NCBI RefSeq assembly: GCF_009847015.1
Contig: NZ_WVEM01000015.1
Location: 1 to 64,000 of the forward strand
Reading direction: 5' to 3'
From: Sunxiuqinia indica
GTDB lineage: Bacteria > Bacteroidota > Bacteroidia > Bacteroidales > Prolixibacteraceae
DNA: 64,000 nucleotides
The position numbers and the translations under genes are program-made. Shown piece by piece: positions 13,955-21,457 of this stretch. The notes under the pieces are model-generated. The model ran no database searches. It was not told the origin of the DNA and saw nothing but the letters and a program-made list of their open reading frames with translations. Position 1 is the stretch's first letter. The number at the start of each line of letters is the position of its first letter.

Positions 13955-14169
13955 AATTGAAAGGACTTTCTTTTTATTTTTTTGACTGTTTTTTCTTTTT
14001 CTTTGAGGAATTTGGGTGCATGTCAATTGATTGATATTGTGTTGTTTTACTGTTTTGTTTTTTGTTTCTATCCCCTAGTTTTACTGGTGACAATATTAGA
14101 GAAAAGTGCGGATAGCAAGATACTATTTTAAAAAGCAACAATTAATGAGCTTTTTTTTGCTTCAAAGTA

Positions 14170-14264
14170 GAAGCGGGCTGGAAGGTATCTTGTGCGGGTA
14201 GTCATTAAGTGCGTAGGCATTGCAAGATGTCAGTTTGTATATACAAACTGCTCTTGCCCGCTTC
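14170..14264. other. Candidate origin of transfer with perfect 20-bp palindrome
   Basis: Just upstream of mobC there is a perfect palindrome CAGTTTGTATATACAAACTG (14231-14250). It sits inside a wider inverted repeat, GAAGCGGGC (14170-14178) with GCCCGCTTC (14256-14264). Inverted repeats next to mobC/relaxase genes are the usual layout of oriT, where MobC and the relaxase assemble before nicking. The nick position is not readable. It could instead be an operator for the mob operon. Confidence 0.5.
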
Positions 14265-14311
14265 CGCTAAGTGATGACACCCAAATGGGGTCATAAAAGG
14301 AGTCTGGAATA

Positions 14312-14614
14312 ATGAACAAGACCAAAAATATTATTCTCAGGTGCAGTGTTGGAGAAAAGAGAATCATACATCAGCTGGCAAAGAAAAGCGGACTAACGCT
14401 TTCCGAGTATTGCCGCAGGCAGGCCATGCATGGTGAAGTAAAAGCCATACCCGCACTAACGCAGCAGGAGATTGAATACTTCCGGATGTTGAAGACTTAC
14501 AGTACCCATTTTAACCGGATAAGCAGCCTGATACGAAAAAAAGACCCTGCATTGGTTGAAGATATAAGGCAACTGGTAAGTGAGCTGACCCGGCTTCAGC
14601 AACGCATTGTTTAA
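14312..14614 (+). CDS. MobC-like mobilization accessory protein (module 1)
   Basis: A protein of 100 residues resembling the relaxosome protein MobC of mobilizable elements: an N-terminal ribbon-helix-helix-like DNA-binding part (KNIILRCSVGEKRIIHQLAK, then GLTLSEYCRRQAMHG) and a C-terminal helical stretch (EDIRQLVSELTRLQQRIV). It would bind oriT and help the relaxase reach the nick site. It is followed after 43 bases by a relaxase gene and preceded by the candidate oriT palindrome. Confidence 0.8.
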   Translation: MNKTKNIILRCSVGEKRIIHQLAKKSGLTLSEYCRRQAMHGEVKAIPALTQQEIEYFRMLKTYSTHFNRISSLIRKKDPALVEDIRQLVSELTRLQQRIV

Positions 14615-14657
14615 GGAGAGCAAAAGGGATTAATGTTTTATAAAACCGTTATAACAG

Positions 14658-15602
14658 ATGATAGCCAAAGCCAAAGCAATAGCGCATGGAAGCAGGGCGA
14701 TAGAATATGCACTGCGGGAATCAAAGAAGGGGTCTTTGGTGGCATCCAACCTGGTTCAAAACGAAACGCCCGGCGCGATTTACAACGAGTTTCTGGAGCT
14801 GCAGGAATGTAATACGCGTTGCAGGAATAAGTTTATCCGGATCGAGATAGGCATTGCCCCCGGAGATGAGAAGAAACTTGGAGAGGAAGACCTTGCCGGT
14901 ATTTGCAGGGAGTTTAGCAGTCGTTTTGGTTTTGAGAATCACCAGTGGATTGGATGTATCCACCGGGATACGGAGCATTTACATATGCACATGATCGTTA
15001 ACCGGATCGGGATAGACCAACGTGTTTATGATACCAGTTTTATCAGCAAACGGGCCGGAAAGATTGCAGAAAGCATCAGCCGGGAACTGGGACTGACCAT
15101 TGCCAACCAGGTAAAACGTAAAAGCAAGTACCGGCCTGAAGTAATGGGCTTTGAACGGATACTGGCCAAAACACTGATCTGCAAGGCTGCCGGAGAAGTG
15201 TTATCGGGGCATCCCACATCCCTGCAAGAATTTACAGCAATGATGAAAAAGCATGATATCGCTGTTCAGCAGGCGGTCAATAAAAAAGGAAACACCTATG
15301 GTTTGCGGTTTACCGGTCACAATCAGACCTTCAAAGCCTCTCAGATCGGCAAAGAGTTTGGCTACCGTACCCTGCTGAATACATTTAAGGAAAACAGAGA
15401 GATCCTCAGTCAGGATTCCGGGCATCTAAACAAGCAGGAACAATCACAAGGTAAATCGGTCAGGAATGCAATTTTGTCTGGTATCGCTTATATATCCGGT
15501 CCGCGGCAATTACTTCGGGAAAATGATTCCAGGATAAGTGAAGAGGAAAGAAAGCGAAAACAAAACCTAAAAAAGAAACGAAGATATGGCCCGAAATTCT
15601 AA
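14658..15602 (+). CDS. MobA/VirD2-family relaxase (module 1)
   Basis: A relaxase/mobilization endonuclease of 314 residues. The metal-binding histidine motif is intact as HRDTEHLHMH (H102, H107, H109, H111), followed by VNRIG. A conserved tyrosine near the N-terminus (Y17 in AIEYALRES) is the candidate nucleophile that attaches to the 5' end of the nicked strand. The lysine/arginine-rich C-terminus is typical. GC content and codon use look higher than in the surrounding chromosome. It overlaps the next gene by 17 bases. The relaxase of module 2 has the same histidine spacing but is otherwise much diverged. Confidence 0.9.
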   Translation: MIAKAKAIAHGSRAIEYALRESKKGSLVASNLVQNETPGAIYNEFLELQECNTRCRNKFIRIEIGIAPGDEKKLGEEDLAGICREFSSRFGFENHQWIGCIHRDTEHLHMHMIVNRIGIDQRVYDTSFISKRAGKIAESISRELGLTIANQVKRKSKYRPEVMGFERILAKTLICKAAGEVLSGHPTSLQEFTAMMKKHDIAVQQAVNKKGNTYGLRFTGHNQTFKASQIGKEFGYRTLLNTFKENREILSQDSGHLNKQEQSQGKSVRNAILSGIAYISGPRQLLRENDSRISEEERKRKQNLKKKRRYGPKF

Positions 15603-16020
15603 TCCACGGACGCAGTCGGTCAAAGATGCGATGCTGGCAGAGATCATCGTAACGGAACTATCAAAGTTCAACACTTCGCATGAAGTAATCATGGAAAGCA
15701 CAGAAAAGATCCTGAGCCGGTACAATGACATAGGGTTGCTGATTAAACGTATGCACCAGCGGGACCAGGCGATTGCCGGGAGTATCAAAGATTTACAGTT
15801 CTCGGCAGAACAAAACCGTTACATGACGGATCTATCCATGCCTATAGTCCGTAAATTGAAAGAGATTGACGAACATGGCATCCGCATTGAGCCCGGGGCA
15901 CTGGATAAGATAACCAGTGCCGTAGAGCAAGGTAACAAACCACTTCTTACACAAATCAAATGGGTTAGTTATGGCTTGCTGGCCGGCTTTGTCATTCTGT
16001 TGCTGATCCTATTGTTTTAA
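15586..16020 (+). CDS. Small coiled-coil protein with C-terminal membrane anchor (mob module 1)
   Basis: A protein of 144 residues that begins inside the end of the relaxase gene (translational coupling). The body is predicted helical and charged. The last 20 residues form a single hydrophobic helix (YGLLAGFVILLLILLF), so it would be tail-anchored in the inner membrane. Module 2 has a gene of the same architecture in the same position, which argues for a shared role, perhaps docking the relaxosome at the membrane. No family is recognized. Confidence 0.7.
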   Translation: MARNSNPRTQSVKDAMLAEIIVTELSKFNTSHEVIMESTEKILSRYNDIGLLIKRMHQRDQAIAGSIKDLQFSAEQNRYMTDLSMPIVRKLKEIDEHGIRIEPGALDKITSAVEQGNKPLLTQIKWVSYGLLAGFVILLLILLF

Positions 16021-16124
16021 TCGTTAAAATATTGTCAGGACACAATTGTCCGGCTAAAGGTTATTAAAATCGTTTGTTACACCTTATCTTTGTACATAAG
16101 AGGTTATACCCTTTCTGCGGATCG

Positions 16125-16169
16125 GGTAGAGACCATCTACCGTAGCCCGCTTTGCCGGGCTACTTTTTT
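16125..16169 (+). terminator. Tandem hairpins with T-tract at the 3' side of the IS110 transposase
   Basis: Two adjacent stems on the + strand: GGTAGA/TCTACC (16125-16141) and GTAGCCCG/CGGGCTAC (16142-16163), followed by six T. The second has the form of a rho-independent terminator reading + and could end transcription of mob module 1 before it enters the transposase gene antisense. The T-tract overlaps the transposase stop codon (16168-16170). A TATCTTTG box at 16085-16092 fits the Bacteroidota -7 consensus, but a matching -33 box at normal spacing is missing. Confidence 0.65.
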
Positions 16170-17232
16170 ATACCGCTACCGGTTCCTGAGAGTCTTGCAG
16201 AACAATATTCTTTTGAGAGTTATTCGTGTGGCCTAAAACATAGTCCGTATTGTTTTTATAAAGCGTGTAAATAAGGATCAGCAATTTACGTTCCAGGGCG
16301 ATAACGCCAGTTTTCCCGGGTTTCCCGTTCTCCTTCATCCGGTTGAAATAAATACGCAGGGTTTGGTTGTGGATAATGGAACATACGGCCGCCATGTATA
16401 AGGCAGCCCGTATATATGCGTTTCCCCTTTTGGATATCCGTGGCCTCCATGCCAGTGTCCCTGATTCCCGGATCACCACATCCAGCCCGGCATAGCTGAC
16501 CAGTTGCCTGCGGTTGCCAATATTGGAGAAGCCATCGGTTTCGGCAATAACCGTTGCCGCAGTTACAAAATTGATCCCGGGAATAGTAATTACATGTTTC
16601 ATCTTTTCGTGCAACACAGGCGATTCGGCAACCAGTTCCTGCATCTGTACTTCAATCTCAGCCAGTTGTTTTGTGGCTAACTTAACCCGTTGCTTCAGGC
16701 GTTTAATACTTTTGGCATACGCTTTATGGGAATGATTTAGAGCATGCAGTTGGTTGGTAAGGGCATTCCTGTCCCGGATGATACTGATCCGTTCCCGGCT
16801 CAACCGTTTAAGAATGCGCAGGTTTTCTGTTGGCCTGTTCCACAAAGGCAAATCTCTTTCCAGTCCCATGCGTGCCAGCATAATGGCATCAATACGGTCT
16901 GTTTTATTCTTCTCATCCAGGCTTCTGGCATATTGTTTTCCTTTGGCAGGTTGGATAATACTCAGCTTAAAGCCCAGGTCACTCAAAAAATAAGCTGCCT
17001 CTTCATGGTAAACACCGGTAGCTTCCATATTAACATGCAGGTAAACCGCCTTGTCACTTTTCTTTTCAATCCATTGCCTGAGTTTCAGCAGCCCTTTACC
17101 GTTGTTCTCAAACCTGCTTGTCGACACTACTTTTACCTGCAGATCCTGCGTATAAACAGCGAGACAACAGTCCACTTTTTTCATGGATACATCAATACCC
17201 ACACATTGCTTAAGAATCGTTTTTGTGTTCAT
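16168..17232 (-). CDS. IS110-family transposase (DEDD recombinase)
   Basis: A transposase of 354 residues. The RuvC-like N-terminal domain shows GIDVS (first Asp near 14), MEATGVYHE (Glu) and KTDRIDA (two Asp). The C-terminal Transposase_20 domain shows VITIPGINFVTAATV and SKRGNAYIRAALY, where the conserved serine of the RuvC-Tnp composite site lies. IS110-group enzymes are guided by a bridge RNA transcribed from the non-coding end upstream of the gene. Here about 550 bases of non-coding, structured DNA lie upstream (17233-17786), in keeping with that group. The gene looks full length and intact. It interrupts the space between two mobilization modules. Confidence 0.95.
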   Translation of the reverse strand: MNTKTILKQCVGIDVSMKKVDCCLAVYTQDLQVKVVSTSRFENNGKGLLKLRQWIEKKSDKAVYLHVNMEATGVYHEEAAYFLSDLGFKLSIIQPAKGKQYARSLDEKNKTDRIDAIMLARMGLERDLPLWNRPTENLRILKRLSRERISIIRDRNALTNQLHALNHSHKAYAKSIKRLKQRVKLATKQLAEIEVQMQELVAESPVLHEKMKHVITIPGINFVTAATVIAETDGFSNIGNRRQLVSYAGLDVVIRESGTLAWRPRISKRGNAYIRAALYMAAVCSIIHNQTLRIYFNRMKENGKPGKTGVIALERKLLILIYTLYKNNTDYVLGHTNNSQKNIVLQDSQEPVAV

Positions 17233-17354
17233 AGAAATGTTTTTAATGGTTTGATTTTGATATCTAGAGAGCTATTATCCCACCGTCCATCCTCATGTAC
17301 TACGCAGGCTCGAAGTTTATACCACGGCTTAAAATACTATCCGGACTCATGGAT

Positions 17355-17446
17355 AAAGAATACAGCAGAGGCCGGTTCTTGCATAAGCATATTCCACAGC
17401 CCGTGGAACTGAAAGATGTGCATGTCGCTCTTCTGCTGTTTCTCTA
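17355..17446 (-). ncRNA. Candidate IS110 bridge-RNA loop (copy A)
   Basis: The outer stem ACAGCAGA (17362-17369) pairs with TCTGCTGT (17432-17439). The inner stem-loop TTCCAC (17392-17397) pairs with GTGGAA (17403-17408). Between them are two unpaired strands of about 22 bases each. This stem, large internal loop, stem-loop shape is that of the target- or donor-binding loops of IS110 bridge RNAs, and it lies upstream of the transposase, read on the minus strand. A TATTTTTG box occurs upstream on the minus strand at about 17475-17482. A second looser fold (ATCCATG pairing with CATGAGGAT) lies between it and the transposase and could be the other loop. Guide pairing with flanks was not demonstrated. 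Confidence 0.5.
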
Positions 17447-17590
17447 TATATCAGCAATTTAACTAATCTTTCTTCAAAAATACGAACAGGCAAAGGATAA
17501 GGCAGGTATAATCTTGCTATACATACACAGGCTTCTCTGTTGCAGGTTTATGTTCGATACTCTCCCTTAACTTTTATCATGACGAAGAAG

Positions 17591-17688
17591 CAAGCAAGAC
17601 AGCAGAGGCAGATTCTTGCAGATAAACATACTCCACTGCGGTGGAGCTAAAAGATGTGTTTGATGCTCTTCTGCTGTTTCTTGCTTTA
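17591..17688 (-). ncRNA. Second copy of the stem/internal-loop structure (copy B)
   Basis: About 80 percent identical by eye to copy A. The outer stem ACAGCAGA (17599-17606) pairs with TCTGCTGT (17670-17677), with a further GCAAG/CTTGC extension. The inner stem CTCCAC (17631-17636) pairs with GTGGAG (17641-17646). Relative to copy A the first inner pair changes from T-A to C-G on both sides, a compensatory change that supports base pairing. Most other differences fall in the unpaired strands. It may be the end of a second, lost IS110 copy or a second guide loop. Confidence 0.45.
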
Positions 17689-17786
17689 CGTTCTAAATAC
17701 ATGATTTTGTAAAAGTATGAGTTTATGTTTTGGTCTTACCAAAACTCCCTTTTCATCCCGTTGGTCTCAATTCAAAATGGCAGAAA

Positions 17787-18140
17787 ATGAAAAACAGGTA
17801 CAAAACCGGCCGGCCTAACAAAAAACTAGGTGAAAAGAAATCGTACCGGGTCAGTGTTAAGATGGCCACTGCCGAGTACTACTCACTAAAAGCCAAAGCC
17901 AGAGAAGCAGGAATAAACAGGAGCGAGTTCATCAGGAAGAGCATCCAGAAAAGTGTCATTAAACAACGTTTATCAACGGAAATACTTGATTTGGTGCGAA
18001 AGCTATGTGGAATGGCCAATAACCTGAACCAGATTGCACGAAAAGCTAATGCAGTGGGATACGCGGATGCCAGGAGTGAATACCTTTTTCTTGCCGGTAA
18101 GATCGATAACCTTTTAGAACAGATCCGCAATGATGGCTAA
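17787..18140 (+). CDS. MobC-like mobilization protein (module 2)
   Basis: ATG 17787 is preferred over the upstream in-frame ATG at 17730 because homologous proteins begin with a short basic tail (MKNRYKTGRPNKKLGEKK) before the ribbon-helix-helix-like part. From there it has about 117 residues. The pattern YRVSVKMATAEYYSLKAKA, then INRSEFIRKS, then LCGMANNLNQIARKAN is characteristic of MobC-family relaxosome proteins. The end overlaps the relaxase start by 8-11 bases, so the two are translationally coupled. Confidence 0.85.
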   Translation: MKNRYKTGRPNKKLGEKKSYRVSVKMATAEYYSLKAKAREAGINRSEFIRKSIQKSVIKQRLSTEILDLVRKLCGMANNLNQIARKANAVGYADARSEYLFLAGKIDNLLEQIRNDG

Positions 18141-19035
18141 GATTGTAAAAGGACAGGATTTTAGGGGAGTCGTTAATTATGTACTTGATAAGGAGAAAGG
18201 CACCCAGCTATTGGAGAGCCAGGGAGTGAGGCTCAAAGACCGGGAGTCCATCATTCAAAGTTTCGCTTTCCAGTCTGAAATGAATCCCCGGATCAAGAAA
18301 CCAGTTGGTCATATTTCTTTGGACTTTTCGGCAAAAGACAAACAAAAACTTGATAACAGGCTCATGGTGGAGGTTTCCCGGGAATATATGCAGAGGATGG
18401 GAATTGAGAATACCCAATACATAGTTGCCCGTCACTACGATAAGGAACATCCACATGTCCATCTTATTTTCAACAGAGTTGACAATACTGGAAGAACAAT
18501 TTCCGACCGGAATGACCGCTACCGAAGTGAAAAGATCTGCAAAGAACTGACCACAAAATATGGATTATACTTTGCCAAAGGGAAGGAAAATGTTAAGGTT
18601 CAGCGGCTCAAAGAACCGGACAAAACCAAGTATGAAATTTATGAAGCTTTAAAGAATCTTATTCCCCAATGCCAAAACTGGGATCATGTCATTGGAAGAC
18701 TCAAAGAACAAAATATAACGGTTGATTTTAAGTTCAGGGGCAAAACCAGCGAGATACAGGGAGTGAGCTTTATTAAAAATGGTTATTCTTTTAATGGATC
18801 AAAGGTCGATAGGCAGTTCAGCTATTCGAAAATTACCTTTCAAATGAAACAGAATCTTGCTCAACAAATGAAACTAGATCATAAAGCCCACGCCCAAATA
18901 TCGGATAGAATGGTTGCTGGAAACTTTTTGGCCAGTCTCATTTACAAAATGGGGAAATACGCTGATGAAAGAAAACAATGGGATAAAAAACATGCAATCC
19001 CAAAAATCAAAAGAAGAAAGGGGCTAAGGAGATAA
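18133..19035 (+). CDS. MobA/VirD2-family relaxase (module 2)
   Basis: A relaxase of about 300 residues (two adjacent ATG codons at 18130 and 18133; either could serve). It has the intact metal motif RHYDKEHPHVHL (histidines at 102, 107, 109 and 111 counted from 18130), FNRVD after it, and an N-terminal VVNYVLD tyrosine as candidate nucleophile. It is of the type found in Bacteroidota mobilizable elements. The spacing of the catalytic histidines is the same as in module 1, but the rest is strongly diverged and the base composition is closer to the host's. It would nick a separate oriT upstream of 17787. Confidence 0.9.
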   Translation: MAKIVKGQDFRGVVNYVLDKEKGTQLLESQGVRLKDRESIIQSFAFQSEMNPRIKKPVGHISLDFSAKDKQKLDNRLMVEVSREYMQRMGIENTQYIVARHYDKEHPHVHLIFNRVDNTGRTISDRNDRYRSEKICKELTTKYGLYFAKGKENVKVQRLKEPDKTKYEIYEALKNLIPQCQNWDHVIGRLKEQNITVDFKFRGKTSEIQGVSFIKNGYSFNGSKVDRQFSYSKITFQMKQNLAQQMKLDHKAHAQISDRMVAGNFLASLIYKMGKYADERKQWDKKHAIPKIKRRKGLRR

Positions 19036-19076
19036 CCAGCGAGCAACAGAAAATCATAATAGAAAAATACGTAGTC

Positions 19077-19700
19077 ATGAAAAACAATGCCATTATTAGC
19101 GAAATGTTCGAGGAGATCAAATCCCGGCTTGTAGCAATTGAAACGAAACTTAATGGCCAGGAGGACAGGCCAAAAGTGATCGATGAAGAAAGAAGGCTCA
19201 GAAATAACAGGACAGCCATTGCATCTGTATTAAAGCAGATTTCCACCTATCTTTCAACCATTCACTTGGAAGCTACTGGAATTCCCGAGAAAATACAGGA
19301 ATCTCAACAAAAAGTCCTTTCCAGCTTGGAACAAGTTCAGGCAATCGTTACTAAACAAGAAAAAGATAGCACAATTCACCATCGTCATGTCATTGACCTC
19401 AAGTCTTCTAAAGTAGTTCTGGCGTTTATTGTATTGGGGTTTGTTTTGCTTGGGTCATTTGTAGGCAATGTTTACCAGTATAGAATGAATAGCCAGATGG
19501 GTGATAATGACTTAATGTTCCGTTATATCAAAGTCCATGATGGGATTAATTCGAAAGACCTTTCAAAATTGGAGGATATCTTTAATTACCATCGCGATAA
19601 AAATCTGATCAAAAAGATTAGGGGAGAGGTTGAAGAATTTGAAATGAAAGTGAGGAAACGAGCTGAGTATATTGAAAAAAAGAGGTTGAATGAAAACTAA
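19077..19700 (+). CDS. Coiled-coil single-pass membrane protein (mob module 2)
   Basis: A protein of 207 residues. A helical N-terminal half with many Glu/Lys/Gln (coiled-coil-like) is followed by one membrane helix at about 113-133 (VVLAFIVLGFVLLGSFVG) and a C-terminal charged helical tail. Its position after a relaxase and its overall layout mirror the 144-residue protein of module 1. No named family is recognized. A role in relaxosome-membrane contact is inferred from context only. Confidence 0.65.
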   Translation: MKNNAIISEMFEEIKSRLVAIETKLNGQEDRPKVIDEERRLRNNRTAIASVLKQISTYLSTIHLEATGIPEKIQESQQKVLSSLEQVQAIVTKQEKDSTIHHRHVIDLKSSKVVLAFIVLGFVLLGSFVGNVYQYRMNSQMGDNDLMFRYIKVHDGINSKDLSKLEDIFNYHRDKNLIKKIRGEVEEFEMKVRKRAEYIEKKRLNEN

Positions 19701-19821: not shown

Positions 19822-21072
19822 TTATCCACTTGCTTTTTGTTGGTTAGGCTTTTGCACTGAAAGTTTTGACTTTAGCGCTTCCATATCATCCGACAATTTG
19901 GAATCTACAATCCGGGCATAAATTTGTGTTGTTTTAATTGAAGTGTGCCCGAGCATTTTTGAAACAGATTCAATTGGAACACCATTGCTCAAAGTAACTG
20001 TCGTTGCAAAAGTATGACGGGCCAAATGATAGGTCAGGTATTTAGGAATGTTGCAAAAGTCGGCCACTTCTTTTAAATAGCTGTTTAGTTTTTGGTTTGA
20101 AATAACAGGGAAAATAGTCCCATTGAATTTTGATCGGGGATTGTCAATGTATTTTTGAATAAGTTCCCATGCCTTTGGGAGTACCGGAATTCTCATAGAA
20201 ACACCGGTTTTCTGCCGGCTCGAGATGATCCAATGATTTCCGTCGGTCCCCAAATGAATATCTTCAGGTTTTAGTTGAACTGTGTCAATATAAGCGAGAC
20301 CTGTGTAGCAGCTAAACACAAATAAGTCTTTTGCGAGTACAAGTCGTGGAAGCTTAAATTCTGCTTCTTCGATTCTTAAAAGTTCATCAGCTTCTAGGTA
20401 GCCCCGTTCGACCTTCTTGAATCTGATTTGATAATTTCTGAATGGATCAGTTTTAATCCAGTCGAGCTTGAGGGAAAGCTTGACAACAACCCGAAAGCGT
20501 TCGATGTGCTTCATTACGCCGTTGTTTTGAAGGGGCTTTTGATGATCGGTGGGTTTTCTTGTTCGTAGAAAATGGTCAAAATCTGTGATCAGTTTATAGT
20601 TGATTTTTCTCAAGAGGATATTTTCAGTTTTATATTGAGATAACAGAAATTCCTTTACATATTTTTCGGTTGTTGAATAATGATGGAGGGTATTCTTAGA
20701 TATATTTCCTTCTGATATCTTCCTATGGTAATCAAATGCATCCTGGATGGTATTGCCAGCTTCTTCAATACCTAAAAATTGATTTTTAACCATGGTTGCG
20801 GTGGGTAATTCTCCTTCAACCAGAAGCTCCCGGTAAATATTATTCAGCCTAGTTCTAACCTTCTCCAAAAACTGGTTCAGTTCCTTGTTTTTCTTTTTTC
20901 TGCCATTAGCTTTTTCGGCGACAGGATTCCAGTCGCTAGGTTCGACTCGTTGCTTCAGTGAAATTTCTGACCTCGAACCATTAATTGTAATTCGGGCATA
21001 AATGATTTGATTGTTTTTGTCGTTGTTTGATCTTGTTACGAACTGTATACCAAATGATTGTGTCGATTCCAT
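19822..21072 (-). CDS. Tyrosine recombinase (integrase) of the mobile region
   Basis: A site-specific integrase of 416 residues: an N-terminal arm-binding domain (about 1-100), a SAM-like core-binding domain (about 108-205) and a catalytic domain (about 225-400). Visible catalytic residues are K288 (RQKTG), H349 and R352 (HLARHTFAT), H376 (LGHTSIKTT) and nucleophile Y385 (QIYAR). The position of the first catalytic arginine holds alanine (YTGLAYID, A260). The TGLAY form is common in Bacteroidota integrases, which resemble IntDOT-type enzymes in lacking this arginine. It is convergent with the mob genes and closest to the right boundary, as expected for the gene acting on attR. Confidence 0.93.
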   Translation of the reverse strand: MESTQSFGIQFVTRSNNDKNNQIIYARITINGSRSEISLKQRVEPSDWNPVAEKANGRKKKNKELNQFLEKVRTRLNNIYRELLVEGELPTATMVKNQFLGIEEAGNTIQDAFDYHRKISEGNISKNTLHHYSTTEKYVKEFLLSQYKTENILLRKINYKLITDFDHFLRTRKPTDHQKPLQNNGVMKHIERFRVVVKLSLKLDWIKTDPFRNYQIRFKKVERGYLEADELLRIEEAEFKLPRLVLAKDLFVFSCYTGLAYIDTVQLKPEDIHLGTDGNHWIISSRQKTGVSMRIPVLPKAWELIQKYIDNPRSKFNGTIFPVISNQKLNSYLKEVADFCNIPKYLTYHLARHTFATTVTLSNGVPIESVSKMLGHTSIKTTQIYARIVDSKLSDDMEALKSKLSVQKPNQQKASG

Positions 21073-21382: not shown

Positions 21383-21457
21383 TGGGTTGTACTGGATTCG
21401 AACCAGTGACCCCTACCCTGTCAAGGTAATGCTCTAAACCAACTGAGCTAACAACCC
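21383..21457 (-). tRNA. tRNA-Val (anticodon GAC)
   Basis: 75 bases on the minus strand. The 7-bp acceptor stem GGGTTGT pairs with ACAACCC with discriminator A. D-arm GCTC/GAGC. The anticodon stem-loop has loop TTGACAG giving anticodon GAC (valine, codons GUC/GUU). T-arm ACTGG-TTCGAAT-CCAGT. CCA is not encoded. The mobile region ends shortly downstream of its 3' end. Confidence 0.97.

Follow-up and report, generated by a model that had tools for sequence, protein, structure and literature searches.

A predicted IS110-family transposon of Sunxiuqinia indica with mobilization-gene cargo and an array of target loops fitting transfer-origin-like sites

The 64,000-nt stretch of the Sunxiuqinia indica genome analyzed here (contig NZ_WVEM01000015.1, positions 1 to 64,000; hereafter, the window) very probably contains an IS110-family transposon that carries mobilization (mob) genes as cargo and a multi-guide array of target loops aimed at sites resembling origins of transfer (oriT), a reading to which we assign a probability of roughly 0.86. 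The whole element (14118..17721, minus strand) measures 3,604 bp including both CT cores, its ends having been located through the right target half predicted by the guides and through the comparison of five complete copies, namely, those of the window, Draconibacterium aestuarii (L008), Mucilaginibacter (L009 and L028), and Flavobacterium (L010), which are 3,571 to 3,623 bp long and have CT at both ends in all five cases. The transposase (16168..17232, minus strand; 354 amino acids) combines the DEDD N-terminal domain and the Transposase_20 C-terminal domain of the IS110 family (PF01548 and PF02371, both above cut-offs), scores 210 bits with NF033542 (cut-off, 140), and at an E value of 0.01 matches two PDB sequences, ISCro4 and IS621. 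As in the IS110 group, a core dinucleotide, CT, is common to both junctions and to the target, intact sites included.

On the left, the CT core (17720..17721, minus strand) adjoins the end CATACTTTTACA (17708..17719, minus strand), and CT-CATACTTTWRCA is the left end common to the six loci that retain it (6/6). On the right, the end AATAGTAT (14120..14127, minus strand), about 2 kb past the transposase, is followed by the second CT core (14118..14119, minus strand), and the search for the right half predicted by the guides found AATAGTAT-CT in the window, L008, L009, L010, and L028.

Read in the sense of the transposase, the leader of the window presents three target loops and then one donor-binding loop before the gene, all on the minus strand: the distal loop W_1 (17595..17683; left guide 17652-17661, right guide 17615-17621), the middle loop W_2 (17499..17568; left guide 17546-17554, right guide 17513-17520), the proximal loop W_3 (17358..17444; left guide 17414-17421, right guide 17378-17384), and the donor-binding loop (17276..17355), with the left donor guide ATAGTATTT at 17332-17340 and the right donor guide ATGAG at 17292-17296. 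An earlier note on this DNA had recognized W_3 and W_1 as two bridge-RNA-like loops, called copies A and B, and we could confirm both: they share two direct repeats, one of 41 nt (85%) and one of 25 nt (88%), at a spacing of 237-238, their outer stem CAGCAGA/TCTGCTG is identical, and one compensated inner-stem pair is T-A in A and C-G in B; the variable strands GTGCATGTCGC / GTGTTTGATGC, which read GCGACATGCAC / GCATCAAACAC on the minus strand, correspond to the left-guide strand of the loops. The loops do lie inside an IS110 element, but there are three of them plus a donor loop, not two. The note had missed W_2, the donor loop, the right end at 14118, the guide-site match, and the mob cargo. 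An Rfam search at the gathering threshold gave no match at the loops and one in the whole window, a tRNA.

Target loops number 3 in the window, 3 in L008, 4 each in L009, L012, and L028, and 2 in L010, i.e., 20 in six arrays (L011, whose array is truncated, was omitted from the loop set), and a donor-type loop is conserved in seven loci, one in each. All six arrays have 2 to 4 target loops, whereas the classic form has a single target loop besides the donor loop; since this is a difference in architecture inside the IS110 family, we regard the array as a variant of it. Of the two explanations offered in the earlier note, a single element bearing several programmable loops built on one scaffold is supported, and the relic end of a second IS110 is not, given that arrays recur in related copies and that the left-end sequence CTCATACTTT is found once per locus in the six loci searched. 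Moreover, both hairpins fall inside the element, which ends at 17720-17721, and both structures are present in L008, so that neither observation named in that note as contrary to its proposal was made. As for the donor loop, ATAGTAT occurs both in the loop and at the right end, and ATGAG stands against the left-end CTCAT in the five complete copies, a purely qualitative comparison; the donor guides fit the joined ends ATAGTAT-CT-CATAC.

The agreement between guides and flanking sequences was then assessed. Each loop was scored against a site as the sum of two longest shared runs, one between the 5' strand and the left half plus CT, the other between the complement of the 3' strand and CT plus the right half, and the control consisted of 17,865 distinct CT sites from eight loci with arrays masked, giving counts that are indicative, because the score takes contiguous matches only and the guide windows were chosen after the first matches. 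L012, with its right end beyond its contig, was left out of this test. The window flanks match the guide strands of W_2 over 9 nt on the left and 8 nt on the right, for a score of 17 versus 10 and 9 for the other two loops, and 0/17,865 controls score as high. The L008 site matches the distal loop of its array over 10 + 7 nt (L008_1 scores 17, the others 11 and 13; 0/17,865 controls as high), and the guides of W_1 in the window predict AAACACAT-CT-TGCAG, the site that L008 occupies. The window and L008 are the most informative pair, because their elements are 95.0% identical and their arrays each hold both loop types, yet each site fits a different loop. For both L009 and L028, loop 3 scores 15 and the others 7, 9, and 12; controls as high amount to 2/17,865 for L009, both loop-1-type inverted-repeat sites, and to 3/17,865 for L028, two of them of this type, which occur among the controls because those loci belonged to the pool. 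For L010, loop 1 scores 14 and the other loop 11, with 3/17,865 controls as high, none of the loop-1 type. When arrays are exchanged across elements, unrelated ones give 11-12 at the window and L008 sites, and those of the window, L008, and L010 give 8-9 at the Mucilaginibacter sites. Complementarity of a guide loop to both sides of the target, as in the IS110 bridge RNA, was found, and it is weakest in L010.

These scores bear on the alternative that survives best, although we consider it unlikely, namely, that this is an ordinary IS110 in which only the proximal target loop works, the other loops being decayed duplicates or remains of nested insertions. Such an element would agree with known bridge RNAs, in which a single target loop accompanies a single donor loop (Durrant et al. 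2024, PMC11208160), and with the proximal loop adjoining the donor loop in 6/6 arrays. However, the proximal loop, tried as the loop for the occupied sites, was rejected, since in none of the five complete copies does it give the highest score; in addition, the left-end sequence is single in each locus, and the loops persist across three genera while their guides change and their stems are compensated.

In the window, the element is inserted at CT, and the oriT-like site that it interrupts belongs to a second mobilizable element. The left target flank (17722..17745, minus strand), composed of the inverted repeat GTTTTGGTAAGACCAAAAC (17727-17745) and ATAAA, and the right target flank TGCTATCC (14110..14117, minus strand) are the two halves of a split site of the type AACATAAACTTGCTA, an intact homologue of which is present in L078. 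The invaded element comprises a MobC-like gene (17787..18140, plus strand; frame open from 17730; PF21983 and PF05713), a relaxase gene (18130..19035, plus strand; PF03432), and probably a tyrosine integrase gene (19822..21072, minus strand) near a tRNA (21383-21457); when the opposite side of the integrated element was searched for a second copy of the tRNA region, only 12-nt matches appeared. Every complete copy (5/5) splits a site composed of an inverted repeat, imperfect in L008, a short spacer, CT, and NGC. MobC and relaxase genes follow the occupied site on the left in 4/5 complete copies, the exception being L010, where the nearest relaxase-like match lies about 2.7 kb past the right end. 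Furthermore, unoccupied sites were found for 3/5 complete copies: once joined, the L009 flanks can be aligned through the junction to the intact L054 over all 120 bp (116/120 by score), the L028 flanks to the intact L044 over 117 bp, and the window flanks, with gaps, to the intact L078. For L008, just the left half could be aligned (L112), and for L010 the best match was weak (L111). Among 30 Mucilaginibacter MobC loci, 26 hold the intact loop-3 target GTTT..AAACATAGCTGGC, 3 bear the element, and 1 (L055) is without the target. An inverted repeat with CT-NGC occurs near MobC in 26/30 Mucilaginibacter loci and in 10/30 loci of the window's order, the position of nic in this layout being taken from the MOBP consensus, which places it just 3' of the insertion position.

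The window and L008 share the element and its cargo but adjoin different mob modules and occupy different sites. The same arrangement could result from an RNA-guided enzyme that rearranges mob modules by exchange or inversion, with the array as a list of exchange sites, and the IS110 family does include invertases. A Piv protein is named in the seekRNA report (Siddiquee et al. 2024, PMC11187229). We judge this explanation improbable, more so than the preceding one: the window and L008 are unlike in both flanks, each pair of flanks fits a single loop, and sites without the element are known, as would be expected from plain insertion.

With regard to structure, single folds of most loops place an outer stem and an inner hairpin on either side of a middle region, the exceptions being L010_1, whose outer stem is weak, and some proximal loops that pair otherwise in the middle. 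Over the 20 loops, a compensatory change occurs at 5/6 predicted pairs of the inner hairpin. RNAalifold recovered the inner hairpin alone and missed the outer stem because outer stems vary in length; the latter was instead tested by arm swapping, in which outer arms paired at -8.8 kcal/mol with their own partner and at -5.6 kcal/mol with foreign ones on average. The whole 468-nt leader folds mildly better than its shuffles (z = -1.55; 7/100 shuffles as good), and the support for the loops is comparative, not energetic. The identical inner hairpins of L028_1 and L028_2 and the identical outer stems of W_1 and W_3 suggest that loops arose by duplication or conversion. The least credible of the alternatives, that the loops are host or oriT-related hairpins (such as repetitive extragenic palindromes) merely resembling a bridge RNA, could appeal to the inverted repeats of the target sites themselves and to the unexceptional folding of the leader, but it is opposed by the position of the loops inside the element ends, by their movement with the element between genera, and by the location of the two target halves on opposite strands of an internal loop.

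The multi-guide reading also led to a prediction. Loop 1 of L009 and L028 was without a known site, and its guides predict AACACAAA-CT-TGCTA, a sequence already included in a search pattern when the mob loci of the window's order had yet to be retrieved. These loci offered a better test than the genus-wide search described below: among 30 with MobC homologues, 7 present an inverted repeat followed by AACACAAACTTGCT, the loop-1 target, 3 present AACATAAACTTGCT, of the W_2 type, and 20 present neither, the window's own locus being one of these 20. In a mob operon of a Spirosoma plasmid, we could notice AAAACACAT-CT-TGCTA, which has the left type of W_1 and L008_1.

Several observations weigh against an array of working guides directed at such sites. 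In a genus-wide search of 149 genomes, the guide pattern remained below its reversed control (11 versus about 24 matches), and no site was found for four loop types, namely, W_3/L008_3, loop 2 (whose guides read AACATTAA-CT-CGCTA), loop 4, and L010_2; for W_3 in particular, no site matching its guides was found. The complete copies are five only and include two related pairs, and the guide windows were set after the first matches had been seen. The L010 site does not discriminate, scoring 12-15 with every array, and the match of its right guide extends over 5 nt and a G-T wobble. The right donor guide has just 5 nt, and W_2 and loop 1 carry C where the second core base should pair with T. Finally, depending on the loop, between 0 and 17 of the 19 foreign outer arms pair as well as the proper one.

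What can be read directly from the DNA, i.e., the array, the ends, the unoccupied sites, the guide-site matches, and the fit of different loops to the sites of two sister copies, is consistent with the following mechanism. The left end would encode a bridge RNA with tandem target loops, each having its own left and right guide, and one donor loop. An excision circle would join the right and left ends at the junction AATAGTAT-CT-CATACTTT. Bacteroidota promoters follow the consensus TTTG/TAnnTTTG, and the joined ends present TTG, 20 nt, and TACTTT in 4/5 copies (TTA in L010), a motif that resembles such a promoter. The array RNA would offer any of its target loops together with the single donor loop, and the transposase would insert the circle at CT, splitting the site; with one transposase and any one loop, insertion could thus occur into one of several types of transfer origin. 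Provided that these sites work as oriTs, the insertion should separate the inverted repeat from nic, which the MOBP consensus puts just 3' of CT, and thereby inactivate the oriT of the host. The cargo would then supply another relaxase and a candidate oriT (14221..14249, minus strand), made of an inverted repeat and GACAT-CT-TGCA; in L110, a similar layout is found before a relaxase relative. Scored against the loops of the element itself, this candidate reaches only 12, 9, and 12, so that the element may avoid itself.

As for known systems, the IS621/IS110-group bridge RNA described in PMC11208160 shares with the present one a DEDD transposase, an RNA in the left end, a CT core, guides on opposite strands of an internal loop, and a donor loop before the transposase gene; different from it, we find 2 to 4 target loops instead of one, mob cargo, and oriT-like targets, and the words tandem, array, and two loops are absent from the main text of that paper. 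The seekRNA of IS1111/IS110 elements (PMC11187229) likewise involves RNA-guided site choice by the same enzyme family, and a term search of that paper returned no tandem loops, oriT, or passenger genes. TIGR-Tas arrays, as described in PMC12045711, resemble the present array in their tandem stem-loop units with paired spacers and in a related RNA-binding domain, but they guide a Nop-domain effector rather than a transposase with a donor loop; the transposase scores 26.8 bits with the Tas endonuclease model NF052498, a weak match far below its cut-off of 100, and hence is not assigned to TIGR-Tas. The cargo and the invaded modules belong to the same families as Bacteroidota mobilizable elements, which have NikA/MobC and a relaxase or BfmA/BtgA and a MobB relaxase, whereas here the mob genes travel inside an RNA-guided transposon. 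A literature search by titles and beginnings of abstracts, in which preprints and most subscription papers fell outside the scope, so that a prior description is possible, retrieved no bridge-RNA arrays and no IS110 element with oriT, nic site, or relaxase.

An element with one target loop and one donor loop is tied to one kind of site; here, one transposase is seemingly served by 2 to 4 interchangeable target loops, and sister copies lie in sites that fit different loops. If this is true, multi-target programming would be a natural feature of IS110 elements, with guides evolving by loop duplication, and could provide a model for multiplexed recombinases, while the transfer origins of other mobile elements as targets would point to RNA-guided parasitism among mobile elements. 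It is possible to hypothesize further, with a chance that we see as about even, a natural multiplexed RNA-guided transposon whose tandem, evolving guides, comparable in function to a CRISPR array but serving transposition, are directed against the transfer origins of rival mobile elements. Moving from one mobilizable element to the next, such a transposon would interrupt the oriT of each and contribute a relaxase of its own, and its array would represent a still existing intermediate stage that connects the stem-loop arrays of TIGR systems with the bridge RNA of two loops.

Relatives of the element are rare in the collections searched. A pattern scan of genome contigs gave five loci (L008 of D. 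aestuarii; L009, L011, and L012 of Mucilaginibacter; and L010 of Flavobacterium), and L028 was added from a genus search; the L008 transposase is 97% identical in amino acids to that of the window, and the whole element is 95.0% identical over its length. A protein search at an E value of 1e-100 in the window's class recovered the window's own genome only (1/395), as did a DNA search with the leader in its order (1/393). At 1e-90, the transposase was found in 3/149 Mucilaginibacter genomes and in 1/348 Flavobacterium genomes, the known one. The plasmid collection contributed 16 records at 1e-40, with relatives of about 42% identity or less, and three distant plasmid transposases had no direct repeat of at least 16 nt in the 0.7 kb before the gene. 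Among viral contigs, 87 stretches matched the pattern and none was a relative, and phage records gave no match at 1e-40. No second whole copy was found in the window's own genome, where partial matches occur on two other contigs only. On contig 13 of this genome, L073 (3267-5283) is a relic of a related element, with cargo mob genes 69-79% identical, a transposase reduced to the C-terminal 45 amino acids, and the right end AATAGTAT-CT-TGCATTCC; its right half fits the right guide of W_3 (CTTGCAT). The copy of L011 (Mucilaginibacter pineti) is truncated, its array being cut within the proximal loop, with other genes beside it and an interrupted transposase frame.

The cargo of the window element, encoded on the plus strand, consists of a NikA/MbpA-like mobilization protein (14312..14614; 100 amino acids; PF21983 above cut-off), a relaxase (14658..15602; 314 amino acids; PF03432 above cut-off), and a third mob-module protein (15586..16020; 144 amino acids), which has one hydrophobic C-terminal stretch by eye and no NCBIfam match. 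The same three proteins are found in L008; in L028, HMM searches identified a BfmA/BtgA-like protein and a MobB relaxase, relatives of both of which were detected by tblastn in L009 and L010.

Behind the transposase, conserved hairpins (16100..16163, minus strand) include a terminator-like one, GTAGCCCG/CGGGCTAC, that follows the stop codon, and the arrangement GTAGATGGTC[hairpin]ATAACCTC, which is kept in L008 to L012, L028, and the relic L002, with stem changes compensated by eye in L008 to L012 and L028, and which may be a two-way terminator or part of the bridge RNA. The conserved stretch GTAGATGGTC..CATAACCTC directly behind the transposase was considered as the right end and rejected because its flank did not fit the right guides, the true end lying about 2 kb farther on.

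Of the 11 genus-wide pattern matches mentioned above, 4 stand behind an inverted repeat; the three of these that were examined (L070, position 8001; L071, 7957; and L072, 8019) carry AACACAAACTTGCTAC after the inverted repeat, have a tyrosine integrase at a distance of 0.8-1.8 kb, and show no match to the mob-protein queries used; they are possibly small islands carrying only an oriT-like site. In the window, two complete mob modules, one invaded and one cargo, are arranged tail to head around the transposase (14312-19700).
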